A DNA stretch of 64,000 bases from Magnetococcales bacterium (GTDB lineage Bacteria; Pseudomonadota; Magnetococcia; Magnetococcales; Magnetaquicoccaceae): NCBI GenBank assembly GCA_015231915.1, contig JADGAR010000009.1, positions 1 through 64,000 of the forward strand. Reading direction: 5' to 3'. Positions within the stretch are counted from its first letter, which is position 1. Every line of letters starts with the position of its first letter. Position numbers and translations under genes: made by a program. Shown here piece by piece: positions 50,506 to 58,302 of the stretch. The notes below the pieces were generated by a model. It did not search any database, had not been told where the DNA came from, and worked only from the letters and a program-made list of their open reading frames with translations.

Positions 50506-50559
50506 ATGAGACCCAATACCACCAATCCCTGGCAAAACCCAGGACAGGCCACGCCATGA
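50506..50559 (+). CDS. Possible 17-residue leader peptide before the CHAT gene
   Basis: A short frame (MRPNTTNPWQNPGQATP) opens at ATG 50506 and its TGA overlaps the CHAT start as ATGA, the same coupling used by real genes throughout this window. An AGGG lies about ten bases upstream. It is rich in Asn, Pro and Thr. Such a short frame can occur by chance, so it is recorded as a possibility only. Confidence 0.25.
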   Translation: MRPNTTNPWQNPGQATP

Positions 50560-51647
50560 GCCGCTCGAACGCCCTTCTGTCCCTGCGCATCACCCCCCAT
50601 GCAACAAGCGGCGGGGTGATCATTCGATGGAGCCTGGATGGTTTCTCCCTGCCGGAGCGGGTCATCGGGGAACGGGAGTTGAGCATCTCGCACCATGTGG
50701 CCGACGCCTGCCGGCAATTGTTGAAGACGCCGGGCAGCGGGGAGTTGGCAGAGGATGCCGTGTTGACGGCGGGAATCGAGCTGTTTCACCAGTGGCTCGC
50801 CCCGGAGTGGCAGGAGCTCGCCCGACGGCTTCCCGGCGGCATCCCGATCCTGCTGGCGATCAGCTCGGAGCTGGAAAAATGGTCGCTGTTGCCCTGGGAG
50901 GCGCTGCGGCTGCCGGACGGGGGGGTGGTGGGGCTGCTGCCGGAGTGGCGCGTGCAGCGCCGGCCTGCCGGCATGCAAACGGTCAACACCTGTCGCGCCA
51001 CCCTGCCGGGTCCGCTGCGCATTCTTTTCGCCAGTTGCGCGCCAACCGGATTCGCTGCCCCGGACACCGGCATGGAGCGCACCGCTTTCGCCAAGGCCAC
51101 GGCCAATCTCCACACCAGGGTGTGCGACACCGGCCAGACGGCCCAACTGGCCGACATCATCCATCAGTGGCAACCCCACGTGGTCCATCTGTCCGGCATT
51201 TCCCTCATCCGGGGCACGCAGGGCTTTTTCGCCTTCGAGGACGCAGAGGGCCAGCCGGACGTGCTGCGTGCCGACGAAATGGGCCGCACCCTGTTGCGCC
51301 ACTCCGGGGTGGGTCTGGCCGTGCTCTCCGGACGCGAGACGGGACATCCCCCGCCGGCGGCGGCGGCGGGGGCGGTGTGCGAGGGGCTGGTGGCAAGCGG
51401 GGCCGTGCCCATGGCCCTGGCCTGGCCGGATTCCCTCTCCGCTGTCGAATCGGTCCCATTCTTGCTTACATTTTTCGCGGAACTGGCGGCGTCAACACCG
51501 GTGGAACAGGCCCTCAACCTGGCTCGCAACCGGATCGCGCCCGCAACGACGGCCATGGGCCGTCCCGGATGGCTTCTGGCGGTCATGCATGCCAAGGGAG
51601 AACATCCGTATCTATTCACCTGCACAAGCGAGGCACGAGCGTCATGA
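50556..51647 (+). CDS. CHAT-domain protein lacking both catalytic residues (pseudo-caspase)
   Basis: The 363-residue protein has a CHAT fold: an LEKWSLLPWEAL stretch (107-118), PLRILFASCAP (153-163), HVVHLSGISL (208-217) and GLAVLSGRETG (253-263), and it ends GWLLAVMHAKGEHPYLF. CHAT proteases carry GHG and SACETG at these places. Here the His is Ile215 and the Cys is Arg260, so it cannot be a normal cysteine protease. It may be a binding or scaffold domain. An AGGAC lies upstream of the ATG, and its stop overlaps the phosphofructokinase start as ATGA. The nearby TIR-STAND genes run on the other strand, so a shared defence function is only a guess. Confidence 0.75.
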   Translation: MSRSNALLSLRITPHATSGGVIIRWSLDGFSLPERVIGERELSISHHVADACRQLLKTPGSGELAEDAVLTAGIELFHQWLAPEWQELARRLPGGIPILLAISSELEKWSLLPWEALRLPDGGVVGLLPEWRVQRRPAGMQTVNTCRATLPGPLRILFASCAPTGFAAPDTGMERTAFAKATANLHTRVCDTGQTAQLADIIHQWQPHVVHLSGISLIRGTQGFFAFEDAEGQPDVLRADEMGRTLLRHSGVGLAVLSGRETGHPPPAAAAGAVCEGLVASGAVPMALAWPDSLSAVESVPFLLTFFAELAASTPVEQALNLARNRIAPATTAMGRPGWLLAVMHAKGEHPYLFTCTSEARAS

Positions 51648-52886: not shown

Positions 52887-52926
52887 CTCTTTTCGGGGGA
52901 CTTCTCCTCATGTCTCCCGAAAAGGG
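52887..52926. terminator. Long hairpin between convergent PFK and TIR-STAND genes
   Basis: CTTTTCGGGGGAC (52889-52901) and GTCTCCCGAAAAG (52912-52924) pair over 13 bases with one mismatch, extended by two pairs, around a 10-base loop. It starts about 25 bases after the PFK stop and includes the last codons of the minus-strand gene. No T tract follows on either strand, so bidirectional termination is likely but not typical. Confidence 0.4.
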
Positions 52927-55535
52927 CATCCCCCCGCCTTCTTCAAAGCCTCCTCCTCCAACCGCGCCTCGGCCTCGAACAACTTCATCCCCGACCAAAC
53001 ACAAATCTCCAGCGCCTCCTCCAAATCCAGCCGCGCCCCCTGCAAATCCCCTTTCTTGCGCAAAAAGGCGGCGCGGTGGATGAGGATTTCGGGGGTATGT
53101 TTAATGTTTCCAGCCTTCTTGATTCCACTCACCGCATCGTCGAAATGCCTGCCAGCCTCCTCGTCGCGCCCCATGCCAGCCAGGGCGCGGGCCTGGGTCA
53201 GGTGGTCCTGGGCGATGCTCAGGAGCCATTGATGTTGCCTGGCGATTGCTTGTGCCTCCTCCCCCCGCTTGCGTACCGTCTCCAGATCCTGACTGTTTTG
53301 CGCCTGCTCCAACAGCAAGGCGCAGTATAAAAAACCGGCCAGGCTGTAAAGCTTGTATGATTGCTGCTGCTTTTGAATCCTTTCCGCTTCCTGAAATGCC
53401 TCTGCGCTTTTTTCCAAATCCCCTTGCCGATGCCAGACATAAGCCAAACGGGCACGACCAGCCCTTTGCCGACCCCAATCCCCTGACCGATCCGCCCAGC
53501 CAATCCCCCTTTCCGCCACCTCCCGCGCCTCGTCCAATTCCCCGATGGGGATCAACAGGTCAACGAGGTTTACGGCGGAGATGGCGGCCCCTTGCCAATC
53601 TTGTTGCTTTTCAGATATCTCCATGTCTGCCCGACGCGGCGCCACCGCATCGGCCATGCGGCCCAAGGCCATGAGAAGGAAAGAAGCCAGTGCCAACAAC
53701 CAACCCCGATCCCCATCCGAAAGCTGCTCGGTTTCCACCACGCGCTCCCAGGGAGGGTCAAAAAATCCCGCCACGGCAGCCAAATCCGCGCTGATGAGGC
53801 CCAATTTATTGGTGCTGAAAAATTCCTTACCCCGATAGATCCGCTCCCACAACACATCGTCCATGGCCTTCTTGTACTCCCCGGCCTTGCAGCCATGATG
53901 GACGGCACGATAAAGAGGTTCCAGGCCTTCCAGGGTATCGGGTTGATAGGGTTCGGTGGCAGAAAAAAATTCGAACAGCACCCGATGGGCCTGGCGGAAG
54001 AGAGCGGGGTGGTTTTTCTCCAGGGTCTGGCCGAAATACTCCCGCACCAGGGGATGGGCGTCCCATTGATCGCGCTCCTTCTGGAGCAGACCCGTGGCTT
54101 CCAGATCGGCAATCATGGCATTGAAGCCGCCCCTGCCGATCCCCAGCAACGGCTTGGCCAGATCGGCTTTTTTCTCCAGTTCCGTGAAGGCCTCCCGCGT
54201 CATGGGCCGGTCGAACAGTCCCAATAGCTGCAAAAATGCCCGTTGCGGCGCATTTTCTTTCCAAAGTTCCGTGTCGTAAAAAGCCATCACCCGCTTGGCG
54301 TGCTCGTCCCTGAACAACCCCTCCTTGACAAGATCCCGGCGAGAAATATCCCCTTCCTGTTCCCTGGCCAGCAACTTTCCCAGCAGCACCAGGGCCAGGG
54401 CGTGGCCTTTCATCTCCCGCACGGCCTGGACGAAATCGCTCGGCAACCCCCTGGTGACCCCCAGGGAACGCAACAATTCCACCCCGTCCGCATCGGAGAG
54501 CGGCCCCAGGTCGATCCTCTGGTGATTGCCGGCCACCTTCAAGCCCGGCCATCCCCAGCGCGAGGAGACCAGCACCAGACTATTGCCGCACCGTGGACGA
54601 TTGGCCTCCAGGTGCCGCAACAGGCGATAGAGGCCGAGGTCCTGAAACTGCCCTTCCCGCACGTCCGGCGGATACTGCAACGGCTCCACCCCGTCCAGGA
54701 TGAGCAGATACGGTTGCCTGGCCAACTGGTCGGCCAACGCTCGCGCCTTCTCCTCTGCGGATTGCGGAATCGCCCCAGGATGGCCAAAATATCGCAACGC
54801 CTCGCGAAAAAAGGCATCGGAGTTGGTCTGTGTCACATGCTGCCCCTGGCTGTAAAACGACCAGCCGAACACCTTCCCCACCCCGCCATACCCTTCTTCC
54901 GCCATACCCTCCAACCAGGCCACGCTCAACGCCGACTTCCCCGTCCCCCCCGCCGCCACAATCCCCACCACCGCCACCCCCGGATCGGCGAACCATTTTT
55001 GCAATCGTTGCAACTCATCCCGCCGCCCCACCAGCTTGGCGGACGGGCGGGGAAGATGGTCCAGATCCGGTTTGTCGCCCCCCGCCATAAAGGCTGGCCC
55101 CTCCTCGGCCCACGCCTCCAACTGCTCAACCACCTGCACCCAAGCCAGATCCGCTTTGGGTTCCGTCATCGCATTGATGGCTTTGCCCTTGAAATCAAGG
55201 ACGTTGAGTATTTTCAGTGGAGTGCTTTTCCAAAGGCATGGCCCAACCACGACCGGCAACAGATGAATTGCCCCCGAGTTCTGCCGTTGCAGCAGAAGCG
55301 GAAACTCAATCCTTTTGATATAATCGGAGTTCAGAAAAGAACGGCTGACCAGCAACACCGCCACATTGCACCGCACAAGCGCCTGCCGGATAGGCGGTTC
55401 CCATTCGACACCCGCCGCGATCATCCCGTCATGCCACGCCGTGACCTGCCCCTCCAACGCTGCCAGATGTTTGAGAAGACGTTCCTTATGCATTATATCT
55501 TCACGGGCATAACAAACAAAAATCTCCAGCTTCAT
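52908..55535 (-). CDS. TIR - STAND NTPase - TPR protein, copy 1
   Basis: The 875-residue protein has a TIR domain (1-125) opening KLEIFVCYAREDIMHKERLL, with WHDGMIAAGVEW and the putative NADase Glu77 (SDYIKRIEFPLL). A STAND/NB-ARC-like ATPase follows: LVGRRDELQRL (about 168), VAAGGTGKSALS (Walker A, about 195), LLILDGVEP (Walker B, about 277) and VLVSSRWGWPGL (sensor 1). A winged-helix region (PMTREAFTELEK, WDAHPLVREYFG) and TPR-like helices (from about 590) complete it. Such proteins typically sense a trigger through the C-terminus, oligomerise and deplete NAD, often as phage defence. The start overlaps copy 2's stop as ATGA. The role is inferred from architecture. Confidence 0.82.
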   Translation of the reverse strand: MKLEIFVCYAREDIMHKERLLKHLAALEGQVTAWHDGMIAAGVEWEPPIRQALVRCNVAVLLVSRSFLNSDYIKRIEFPLLLQRQNSGAIHLLPVVVGPCLWKSTPLKILNVLDFKGKAINAMTEPKADLAWVQVVEQLEAWAEEGPAFMAGGDKPDLDHLPRPSAKLVGRRDELQRLQKWFADPGVAVVGIVAAGGTGKSALSVAWLEGMAEEGYGGVGKVFGWSFYSQGQHVTQTNSDAFFREALRYFGHPGAIPQSAEEKARALADQLARQPYLLILDGVEPLQYPPDVREGQFQDLGLYRLLRHLEANRPRCGNSLVLVSSRWGWPGLKVAGNHQRIDLGPLSDADGVELLRSLGVTRGLPSDFVQAVREMKGHALALVLLGKLLAREQEGDISRRDLVKEGLFRDEHAKRVMAFYDTELWKENAPQRAFLQLLGLFDRPMTREAFTELEKKADLAKPLLGIGRGGFNAMIADLEATGLLQKERDQWDAHPLVREYFGQTLEKNHPALFRQAHRVLFEFFSATEPYQPDTLEGLEPLYRAVHHGCKAGEYKKAMDDVLWERIYRGKEFFSTNKLGLISADLAAVAGFFDPPWERVVETEQLSDGDRGWLLALASFLLMALGRMADAVAPRRADMEISEKQQDWQGAAISAVNLVDLLIPIGELDEAREVAERGIGWADRSGDWGRQRAGRARLAYVWHRQGDLEKSAEAFQEAERIQKQQQSYKLYSLAGFLYCALLLEQAQNSQDLETVRKRGEEAQAIARQHQWLLSIAQDHLTQARALAGMGRDEEAGRHFDDAVSGIKKAGNIKHTPEILIHRAAFLRKKGDLQGARLDLEEALEICVWSGMKLFEAEARLEEEALKKAGGCPFRET
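52958..54520. repeat. Long direct repeat within the TIR-STAND pair (second copy 55567-57129)
   Basis: The 3' part of copy 1 recurs 2,609 bases further on, at 55567-57129, in the same orientation and without any net insertion or deletion over about 1.56 kb. Most lines differ by only a few bases, for example the first 80 bases are identical. It encodes most of the NTPase C-terminal half and all TPRs. A recent duplication or gene conversion is the simplest cause. The upstream parts of the two genes are far less alike. Confidence 0.85.
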
Positions 55536-58108
55536 GGCTCACCCCCACCTGTCAATTTCCCCTCCTCCAACCGCGCCTCGGCCTCGAACAACTTCATCCC
55601 CGACCAAACACAAATCTCCAGCGCCTCCTCCAAATCCAGCCGCGCCCCTTGCAAATCCCCTTTCTTGCGCAAAAAGGCGGCGCGGTGGATGAGGATTTCG
55701 GGGGTATTATTAATGGACCCTGCCTTCTTGATGCCGATCACCGCCTGGTCGAAATGGCTGCCAGCCTCCTCGTCGCGCCCCATGCCAGCCAGGGCACGGG
55801 CCTGAGTCAGGTGGTCCTGGGCGATGGCCAGGAGCCATTGATATTGCCTGGCGATTGCTTGTGCCTCCTCCCCCCGCTTGCGCACCGCCTCCAGATCCTG
55901 ACTGTTTTGCGCCTGCTCCAACAGCAAGGCGCAGTAAAAAAAACCGGCCAGGCTGTAAAGATTGTAAGGTTCATGCTGCTTTTGGATCCTTTCTGCTTCC
56001 TGAAACGCCTCAGCGCTTTTTTCCAAATCCCCTTGCCGATGCCAGGCATGAGCCAAATGGGCACGACCAGACATTTGCCGAAACCAATCCCCTGACCGAT
56101 CCGCCCAGCCAATCCCCCTTTCCGCCACATCCCGCGCCTCGTCCAATTCCCCGATGGGGATCAACAGGTCAACGAGGTTTTCGGCGGAAATGGCGGCCCA
56201 TTGCCAATCTTGCCGCTTTTCAGCCATCTCCATGTCTGCCCGACGCGGTACCACCGCATCGGCCATGCGGCCCAAGGCCATGAGACAGTAAGAAGCCAGC
56301 CCCAACAACCAACCCCGATCCCCATCCGAAAGCTGCTCGGTTTCCACCACGCGCTCCCAGGGAGGGTCAAAAAATCCCGCCACGGCAGCCAAATCCGCGC
56401 TGATGGCGCCCAATTTTTTGGTGCTGAAAAATTCACCACCCCGATGAATCCGCGCCTGCAACACATCCTCCTTGGCCTTCTTGTACTCCCCGGCCTTGCA
56501 GCCATGATGGACGGCACGATAAAGGGGTTCCAGGCCTTCCAGGGTGTCAGGCCGATGTGGTTTGGTGGCCGCAAAAAATTCGAACAGCACCCGATGGGCC
56601 TGGCGAAAGAGGTCGGGGTGGTTTTTCTCCAGGGTCTGGCCGAAATATTCCCGCACCAGGGGATGGGCGTCCCATTGATCACGCTCTTTCTGGAGCAGAC
56701 CCGTGGCTTCCAGATCGGAAATCATGGCATTGAAGTCGCCCCTGTTGATCCCCCGCAACGGCTTGGCCAGATCGGCTTTTTTCTCCAGTTCCGCGAAGGC
56801 CTCCCGCGTCATGGGCCGGTCGAAAAGTCCCAAAAGCTGCAAAAACGCCCGTTGCGGCGCATTTTCTTTCCAAAGTTTTGTATCGTAAAAAGCCATCACC
56901 CGCTTGGCGTGCTCGTCCCTGAATAACCCCTCCTTGACAAGATCCCGGCAAGAAATATCCCCTTCCTGTTCCTTAGCCAGCAGTTTTCCCAGCAGCACCA
57001 GGGCCAGGGCGTGGCCTTTCATCTCCCGCACGGCCTGGACGAAATCGCTCTGCAACCCCCTGGTGACCCCCAGGGAACGCAACAATTCCACCCCGTCCGC
57101 ATCGGAAAGCGGCCCGAGGTCGATTTTTTTGATGGCGGAAGAGCCTCGCAAACCTGGCCACCCCCAGCGCGAGGAGATCAGCACCAGACTTTCCCCGTTG
57201 CCAAGGCCATTGGCTTCCAGGGTGCGCAGCAGGCGATAAAGACCGGGATCCTGAAACTGGCCATCCCGCACGTCGGGGGGATACTGCAACGGCTCCACAC
57301 CGTCCAGTACCAATAAAAAAGATTGCGTTGCGAGCAGATCGGCCAGCGCTGTGGCCTTTTCCTCCCCGGACTGGGGAATCTCGCCGCTGTACCCGAAGAA
57401 GGAAAATGCCGCCCGAAAAAAGGCATCGGAGTTGGTCTGGGTGGCATGCTGCCCCTGGCTGTAAAACGACCAGCCGAACACCTTGCCGACCCCATGGAAC
57501 TTCTCTTTCCGCAATTTTTCCAGCCACGCCACGCTCAAGGCCGACTTGCCCGTCCCGCCCGCCGCGATGAGGCCGACCATGGAGACATCAGGATCGAGAA
57601 ACCATTGATTCAGCAGCAGCAACTCCTCCGCGCGTCCCATCAGGGAAGTTGCCGGACGCGGCAAATGAGACAGATCCACCTTGGCCAACCCCCTGCCCGC
57701 GCTCACTGCCGATCGCGTGGCAAAGGCATGCACCTTCTTGATGAATTCCTTCCAACTCTGGTCCCCCGCATCGATCTTGAACACCTGCAATGCCCCCAGG
57801 CGTGTCAATTCCCAATTGCATGGCCCCACAACCACCGGAAACAGCCGGACATTACGTTCGTACAGTCTCGGCAACTCCACGTTCTGGATGAAATCCGAGG
57901 CCAGAAAATCAGCGCTGATCAACAAAATACCCGCGTTGCAACTCTCCAGGGCCGCAGCGATTTTGTCTCGCCACGCCTCCCCAACCTCGATCAAGCCATC
58001 CTGCCAGACCGCCACGCCATGCTCCTGCAAGGGCACAAGAAACGTTAACAGCCGCTCCTTGTGCCCCATATCCTTGCGGGCATAACAAATAAAAGTAGTC
58101 AGCGCCAT
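55532..58108 (-). CDS. TIR - STAND NTPase - TPR protein, copy 2
   Basis: Copy 2 has 858 residues. Its TIR domain (1-120; LTTFICYARKDMGHKERLL, VWQDGLIEVGEAW, Glu78 in SDFIQNVELPRL) is roughly 40 percent like that of copy 1, but from the NTPase centre to near the C-terminus the two proteins are almost identical. Walker A is IAAGGTGKSALS (about 188) and Walker B LLVLDGVEP. It differs at the extreme C-terminus (EEGKLTGGGEP). The start is ATG 58108, with GGGGGA five bases upstream; an upstream in-frame Met adds a Gln/Pro leader and is less likely. Copy 2 is transcribed first and coupled to copy 1. About 190 bases of unassigned sequence separate it from the divergent LEA-like gene. Confidence 0.82.
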   Translation of the reverse strand: MALTTFICYARKDMGHKERLLTFLVPLQEHGVAVWQDGLIEVGEAWRDKIAAALESCNAGILLISADFLASDFIQNVELPRLYERNVRLFPVVVGPCNWELTRLGALQVFKIDAGDQSWKEFIKKVHAFATRSAVSAGRGLAKVDLSHLPRPATSLMGRAEELLLLNQWFLDPDVSMVGLIAAGGTGKSALSVAWLEKLRKEKFHGVGKVFGWSFYSQGQHATQTNSDAFFRAAFSFFGYSGEIPQSGEEKATALADLLATQSFLLVLDGVEPLQYPPDVRDGQFQDPGLYRLLRTLEANGLGNGESLVLISSRWGWPGLRGSSAIKKIDLGPLSDADGVELLRSLGVTRGLQSDFVQAVREMKGHALALVLLGKLLAKEQEGDISCRDLVKEGLFRDEHAKRVMAFYDTKLWKENAPQRAFLQLLGLFDRPMTREAFAELEKKADLAKPLRGINRGDFNAMISDLEATGLLQKERDQWDAHPLVREYFGQTLEKNHPDLFRQAHRVLFEFFAATKPHRPDTLEGLEPLYRAVHHGCKAGEYKKAKEDVLQARIHRGGEFFSTKKLGAISADLAAVAGFFDPPWERVVETEQLSDGDRGWLLGLASYCLMALGRMADAVVPRRADMEMAEKRQDWQWAAISAENLVDLLIPIGELDEARDVAERGIGWADRSGDWFRQMSGRAHLAHAWHRQGDLEKSAEAFQEAERIQKQHEPYNLYSLAGFFYCALLLEQAQNSQDLEAVRKRGEEAQAIARQYQWLLAIAQDHLTQARALAGMGRDEEAGSHFDQAVIGIKKAGSINNTPEILIHRAAFLRKKGDLQGARLDLEEALEICVWSGMKLFEAEARLEEGKLTGGGEP

Positions 58109-58302
58109 GTTTCCCCCACCATCAAATATCGGCTCTTGTTGCTCCGGCAAGCAATCGGATCCCCTATTCCATCACATCCCGCATTTTTTGCCAAGACCCC
58201 ATTGCCATTTATCCGCATTGGTATCCATATTGCTTCCTGACAAGGCATTGCGCCCTTGCCTCCTGGAACAGGCATCATGATTTTGACTCGCGAAAGGTTA
58301 CC

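Follow-up and report, generated by a model that had tools for sequence, protein, structure and literature searches.

Tandem TIR-STAND-TPR genes

The window, the whole 64,000-nucleotide stretch analysed here (contig JADGAR010000009.1 of a Magnetococcales bacterium), belongs to a draft genome of 4.0 Mb in 133 contigs (G000), whose closest relative is a sister species with a genome labelled as a MAG (G001). Open reading frames and Pfam searches revealed two adjacent TIR-STAND-TPR genes on the reverse strand, which carries every feature below unless stated otherwise: the upstream ('U') gene A (55532-58108, 858 aa) and the downstream ('D') gene B (52908-55535, 875 aa), the latter being the syntenic orthologue of a single gene, G1C6, in the sister genome. 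The stop codon of A (TGA) overlaps the start codon of B (ATG) as ATGA at 55532-55535. Both frames are full-length and free of internal stops, each has its own ribosome-binding leader, and Walker A, Walker B and the Glu at the catalytic position are intact in both.

The TIR domains occupy 57779-58108 in A (Pfam TIR_2 and structure model) and 55200-55535 in B (Pfam TIR_2; 77% identical to that of the orthologue), and both match TIR_2 above the cut-off. Profile, alignment and fold match together identify a TIR fold with its Glu in the pair. The putative catalytic residues, E78 of A (codon 57875-57877) and E77 of B (codon 55305-55307), correspond to a Glu that is invariant across 37 family TIRs and aligns with the YEL Glu of AbTIR, which is E208 in AbTIR numbering. 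AbTIR E208 has been named catalytic (PMC10022894). The STAND/NB-ARC-like NTPase was recognised by conserved G-x-G-K and D-G-x-E motifs and by a STAND fold in the model of B; in A, the Walker A motif (AAGGTGKS, with invariant G185, G187 and K188) lies at 57542-57565. The TPR sensor region covers residues 552-815 of B (53091-53882, with helices taken from the structure model) and its counterpart in A (55700-56491); TPR matches exceeded the cut-off in both genes (TPR_2 in A, TPR_12 in B), and the C-terminal helix pairs were regular in the model of B. The full-length model of B (mean pLDDT 92) matched PH0952, Apaf-1, RPP1 and MalT, and the TIR model of A (pLDDT 95) matched the active SPARTA, AbTir and SARM1 TIRs, among others. 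The architecture proposed by the sequence-only reading is supported by Pfam and the models, and its ATGA overlap and its putative catalytic Glu in each TIR were confirmed. A chain combining TIR and TPR has been solved (9m0n).

The locus in the sister genome and a second cassette

The pair lies between a phosphofructokinase (PFK)-like gene and a LEA-type lipoprotein gene, and both flanks (the PFK-like side, and the lipoprotein gene with those following it) are collinear with G001. We found five family genes in G001 and three in the window genome, and partial matches only in two other genus members. At this locus G001 carries G1C6 alone, which is orthologous to B over its full length with no breakpoint. 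Within its 5' leader, G1C6 carries a 31-nt stretch that matches the terminal 3' sequence of a family gene at 28/31 positions (score 25; maximum 16 in 1,000 shuffles). Directly ahead of the G1C6 ATG stands TTGACGGGTGGGGGTGAGCC, whose window counterpart, different by one base, provides the end of A as well as B's leader. Because this leader holds a 3'-end scar, the simplest reading of the sequences is that G001 deleted the upstream gene and that the two-gene state is ancestral at this locus. A recent insertion of A into the window genome, which the single gene of G001 had suggested, was ruled out by the same remnant.

A search for the pair in relatives, proposed as a check by the sequence-only reading, thus yielded a single gene at the same locus and, elsewhere in G001, a second tandem pair, flanked by succinate dehydrogenase on one side and a putative nuclease gene on the other. 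The upstream gene of this second pair has a leader like that of A (GGTGGGGGAAAC, 58109-58120), and the downstream gene has one like that of B; the latter leader (TTGACAGGTGGGGGTGAGCC, 55536-55555), which also supplies the last codons of A, recurs in the leaders of both downstream-type genes in G001. Additionally, a 25-nt element (TTGGCAANNNATGCGGGATGTGATG) precedes both two-gene units, and lies ahead of A in the window as TTGGCAAAAAATGCGGGATGTGATG (58170-58194). It is confined to the cassette loci, with three occurrences in the five genomes searched, each ahead of a family gene at one of the two loci. The site of the second cassette spans about 5.5 kb in G001 (L024:4873-10396, C37), and about 76 bp stands there instead in the window genome (L137:2167-2243, C126). 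Since the second pair has matching leaders and the same 25-nt element, the two genes seem to have been duplicated together.

Around the pair we found no defence island, the flanks being mostly housekeeping genes, no receptor for a TIR signal near it, and no RNA element in its flanks. Searches for carriage on mobile elements gave no phage record, and the best 10 of 42 plasmid records held only TIR-sized matches (16-21% of B). A third TIR-STAND-TPR paralogue is present elsewhere in the window genome (C89, L028), and its closest match in the sister genome (C9, L027) is 85% identical in the TIR and 72% in the C-terminal part at the amino acid level. Within the window, a gene of 363 aa on the forward strand (50556-51647) adjoins the PFK-like gene in 5/5 genomes where the locus was seen. 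It evolves much faster than its neighbour (83% versus 98% identity between G000 and G001), resembles a CHAT protease by eye with the usual catalytic Cys absent (VLSGRETG), and had no Pfam or NCBIfam match.

A homogenised 3' block beneath exchanged TIR ends

To locate any conversion boundary, as the sequence-only reading had advised, identity was scanned along the pair. At an offset of 2,609, residues 336-848 of A (55565-57103) and residues 348-860 of B (52956-54494) form a gap-free block of 1,539 nt that is 93.5% identical and comprises the end of the NTPase, the winged-helix (ARC) part and the TPRs. Over all of gene B, identity was 76% at this offset and at most 32% at the other offsets between 2,400 and 2,799. 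The earlier description of almost identical C-terminal halves of about 1.56 kb was therefore sound as to the block, its offset and its lack of gaps, and slightly strong in its wording, as 100 nt and 52 aa differ. Left of the block, amino acid identity between A and B was 45% in the TIR, near the 40 percent first estimated, and 70% in the N-terminal half of the nucleotide-binding domain (NBD). The switch was sharp: at about A residue 335, the share of differing third positions dropped from 47% on the left to 9% on the right (z 12.6, against a highest value of 4.9 among 2,000 permutations), and silent-site divergence (dS) fell from about 1.1 to 0.13 at the same junction. Because dS drops there as well, the pattern points to recombination and not to selection on the protein alone, and on the sequence evidence the switch is a recombination junction.

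We compared trees and breakpoints among eight close copies. In the TIR tree, grouping of A with B was rejected (AU P = 1e-5) and grouping of B with G1C6 was supported (100/100), whereas in the C-terminal tree B with G1C6 was rejected (P = 2.6e-5) and A with B was supported (100/99.8). Fast TIR evolution without recombination was ruled out by these conflicting trees together with the dS jump. One breakpoint lies near residue 332-335, at the NBD/ARC border, and separates A from B, G1C37dn and G1C6; another lies near residue 122-125, in the TIR/NBD linker, and separates B and G1C6 from G1C37dn. Thus the three unlike TIR ends found on one chassis (that of A, that of B and G1C6, and that of G1C37dn) reflect at least two separate exchanges. 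The compared copies have intact ORFs and dN/dS < 1 in TIR and NBD. A C-terminal extension is kept by G1C6 and G1C37dn and is lost from A and B.

We then placed the pair among 45 TIR-bearing relatives chosen by likeness to A, giving 990 pairs that are not independent of one another. In no other pair did C-terminal identity exceed TIR identity by as much as in A/B (0.89 vs 0.49), and four other close pairs showed the opposite, for example Thiothrix L111/L077 (TIR 0.96, C-terminal part 0.63). The claim that the sensor half was kept while the TIR differed was thereby confirmed, and judged from these sequences the reversed pattern is real within its family. The accompanying premise, that the sensor is usually the variable part, proved only half right: elsewhere the same chassis carries varied N-termini, which in relatives include PNP, caspase, HNH, SEFIR, Mrr, a serine esterase-like domain and EAD7. 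Effector exchange on the STAND-TPR chassis is, as far as such comparisons indicate, general among relatives.

Several of these relatives deserve separate mention. Fusions of the STAND-TPR chassis to PNP_UDP_1, Peptidase_C14, HNH, Mrr_cat, SEFIR and EAD7 were seen in L046, L057, L099, L106, L116 and L090. L111 (Thiothrix eikelboomii ATCC 49788) has three family C-terminal parts within about 8 kb, 51-52% mutually alike, and might serve as a laboratory model. Another tandem arrangement occurs in two genomes of the same family (L034 and L036), where a STAND gene of reduced length (534-548 aa), nearly or entirely lacking TPRs, comes after a full-length STAND-TPR gene.

To assess how far the sensor is shared, codon differences between A and B were counted. 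In the TPRs (B residues 552-815) there were 38 replacement and 12 silent differences (dN/dS 0.77), compared with 14 replacement and 17 silent differences (dN/dS 0.22) in the adjoining ARC/winged-helix part (residues 349-551), a significant skew (Fisher P = 0.008). The same skew appeared in 6/6 pairs among four close copies (P = 0.0004 to 0.008; the pairs are not independent). Clustering of the replacements in the concave TPR groove was considered and rejected, as enrichment was not significant either over all helix positions (P = 0.55) or within helix A (P = 0.32). By this pattern of codon changes, the block was first homogenised and its sensing part later acquired amino acid changes, either through relaxed constraint or through diversifying selection; with an overall TPR dN/dS below 1, relaxed constraint explains them just as well. 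With 38 replacements against 12 silent changes in the shared TPRs, the proposal that one sensor answers to one trigger became doubtful.

Interpretation and comparison with known systems

These results probably describe a two-gene NLR-like cassette, each member with a TIR effector, a STAND/NB-ARC-like switch and a TPR sensor, that evolves by exchange of 5' ends on a homogenised 3' chassis; its products would be NAD-consuming abortive-infection receptors that form homo-oligomers and have related but diverging sensors. A defence role is suggested by the architecture, by analogy with known receptors. Each receptor would rest as a monomer, would be opened by a phage-derived ligand bound in the TPR groove, and would then oligomerise through its NTPase as known STAND receptors do, whereupon the clustered TIRs would consume NAD+ and the infected cell would arrest or die. 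The N-terminal half of the NBD, where known NLRs lead us to expect the oligomer contacts, is only 70% identical, and each gene product therefore most likely self-assembles. The TPRs of A and B, re-homogenised and then diversified, probably recognise related, non-identical ligands, and with two unlike TIRs retained, a single phage inhibitor may be less able to shut off the output.

The same facts can be read with no function in the pairing: ordinary gene conversion between tandem copies would preserve the likeness of the 3' halves, with the differing TIRs as old paralogues left outside the converted tract. Conversion is common between close tandem repeats, and G001 lost one upstream member and kept the downstream one; however, the intact ORFs and dN/dS < 1 in TIR and NBD of the compared copies speak against it, and three TIRs on one chassis via two breakpoints, with the family norm reversed, suggest more than passive drift. 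We regard such neutrality as rather unlikely. Decay or silence of one gene would fit the loss from both A and B of the C-terminal extension of G1C6 and G1C37dn, and the derivation of A's last codons from B's leader, yet it is very doubtful given the full-length frames, the intact Walker A, Walker B and Glu, and the separate ribosome-binding leaders. An assembly artefact is scarcely credible. The draft is probably metagenome-derived like its MAG-labelled sister, and near-repeats are prone to mis-joining, but the 100 differences between A and B are scattered, so these are not one sequence used twice, and the flanks and leaders recur in the independently assembled sister, which also has another tandem pair.

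Under the sequence-only reading, a shared sensor would bind one ligand and, perhaps through mixed oligomers, drive unlike TIRs that make different NAD products. This is consistent with the 93.5% identical block, the ATGA translational coupling, the tandem U-D order in two cassettes and the presence of the Glu in both diverged TIRs, and different TIRs are known to make different cADPR isomers (PMC10022894). The replacement skew of the TPRs (38:12 vs 14:17 next door), the 70% identity of the NBD N-terminal half and the failure to find a TIR-signal receptor near the pair nevertheless weigh against it, and we consider a single trigger with two outputs possible, not favoured, and unlikely. A paired-NLR cassette, in which selection keeps one recognition chassis in register across adjacent genes with two TIR enzymes, so that one infection signal gives two NAD-derived outputs or a mixed oligomer, seems decidedly unlikely; if true, it would protect against phage inhibitors of either output.

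The exchange of TIR ends on a homogenised chassis makes the pair a natural illustration of how bacterial immunity evolves by mix-and-match, with a recently copied sensor half joined to quite different TIR ends. The modularity of STAND receptors was already known, but most such swaps have been deduced by comparing distantly related proteins. In this case a single genus preserves the junctions, the ancestral locus, another copy of the cassette and the remnant of a lost member. One can therefore test whether replacing the TIR end, with the chassis unchanged, affects the product, what triggers the receptor, or just its resistance to phage inhibitors, and A, B, G1C37dn and G1C6 form a natural matched set for separating sensor from effector effects.

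Our literature search found no paper on Magnetococcales TIR defence. Prokaryotic AP-ATPases (NB-ARC-type STANDs) with an N-terminal TIR and C-terminal TPRs have been described (PMC7159879); they share the domain order, STAND switch, TPR region and predicted conflict role, whereas there a single effector is tied to VMAP/peptide systems and here a free tandem pair has a homogenised chassis. Avs/AVAST antiviral STANDs likewise follow an effector-STAND-repeat sensor plan with a modular N-terminus, and the Avs5 effector also consumes NAD (PMC12931631), but it is a Sir2 and not a TIR; A and B had no Avs match in PADLOC (to E 0.1) and no nSTAND match in Pfam (to E 1). The best PADLOC match for both TIR domains was Thoeris ThsB, which in contrast is a stand-alone TIR protein that acts with ThsA, while the TIRs of A and B are fused to STAND-TPR; no ThsA (Sir2/STALD) partner lies beside the pair, and a STALD search of the genome gave no match, with controls equally silent.

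In STAND targets diversified by DGRs, a duplicated C-terminal sensor region is joined to distinct N-terminal domains (PMC10907252), a precedent for one sensor region on distinct N-termini; those systems need a reverse transcriptase and CLec domains, whereas a profile search found no CLec variable region in A or B. Plant TIR-NLRs such as RPS4/RRS1 are also encoded as a pair with possible TIR-TIR contacts and work as a receptor complex (PMC5435354), whereas A and B have like sensor parts and any complex between them is hypothetical. In the Podospora het-d/het-e (hnwd) NLRs, the paralogues have had their sensor repeats homogenised and later diversified, and positive selection acts on residues of the binding face (PMC1805685). 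The fungal WD repeats are exchanged as units, whereas A and B share one long tract without significant groove enrichment; the likeness lies in homogenisation followed by change in the sensor repeats.
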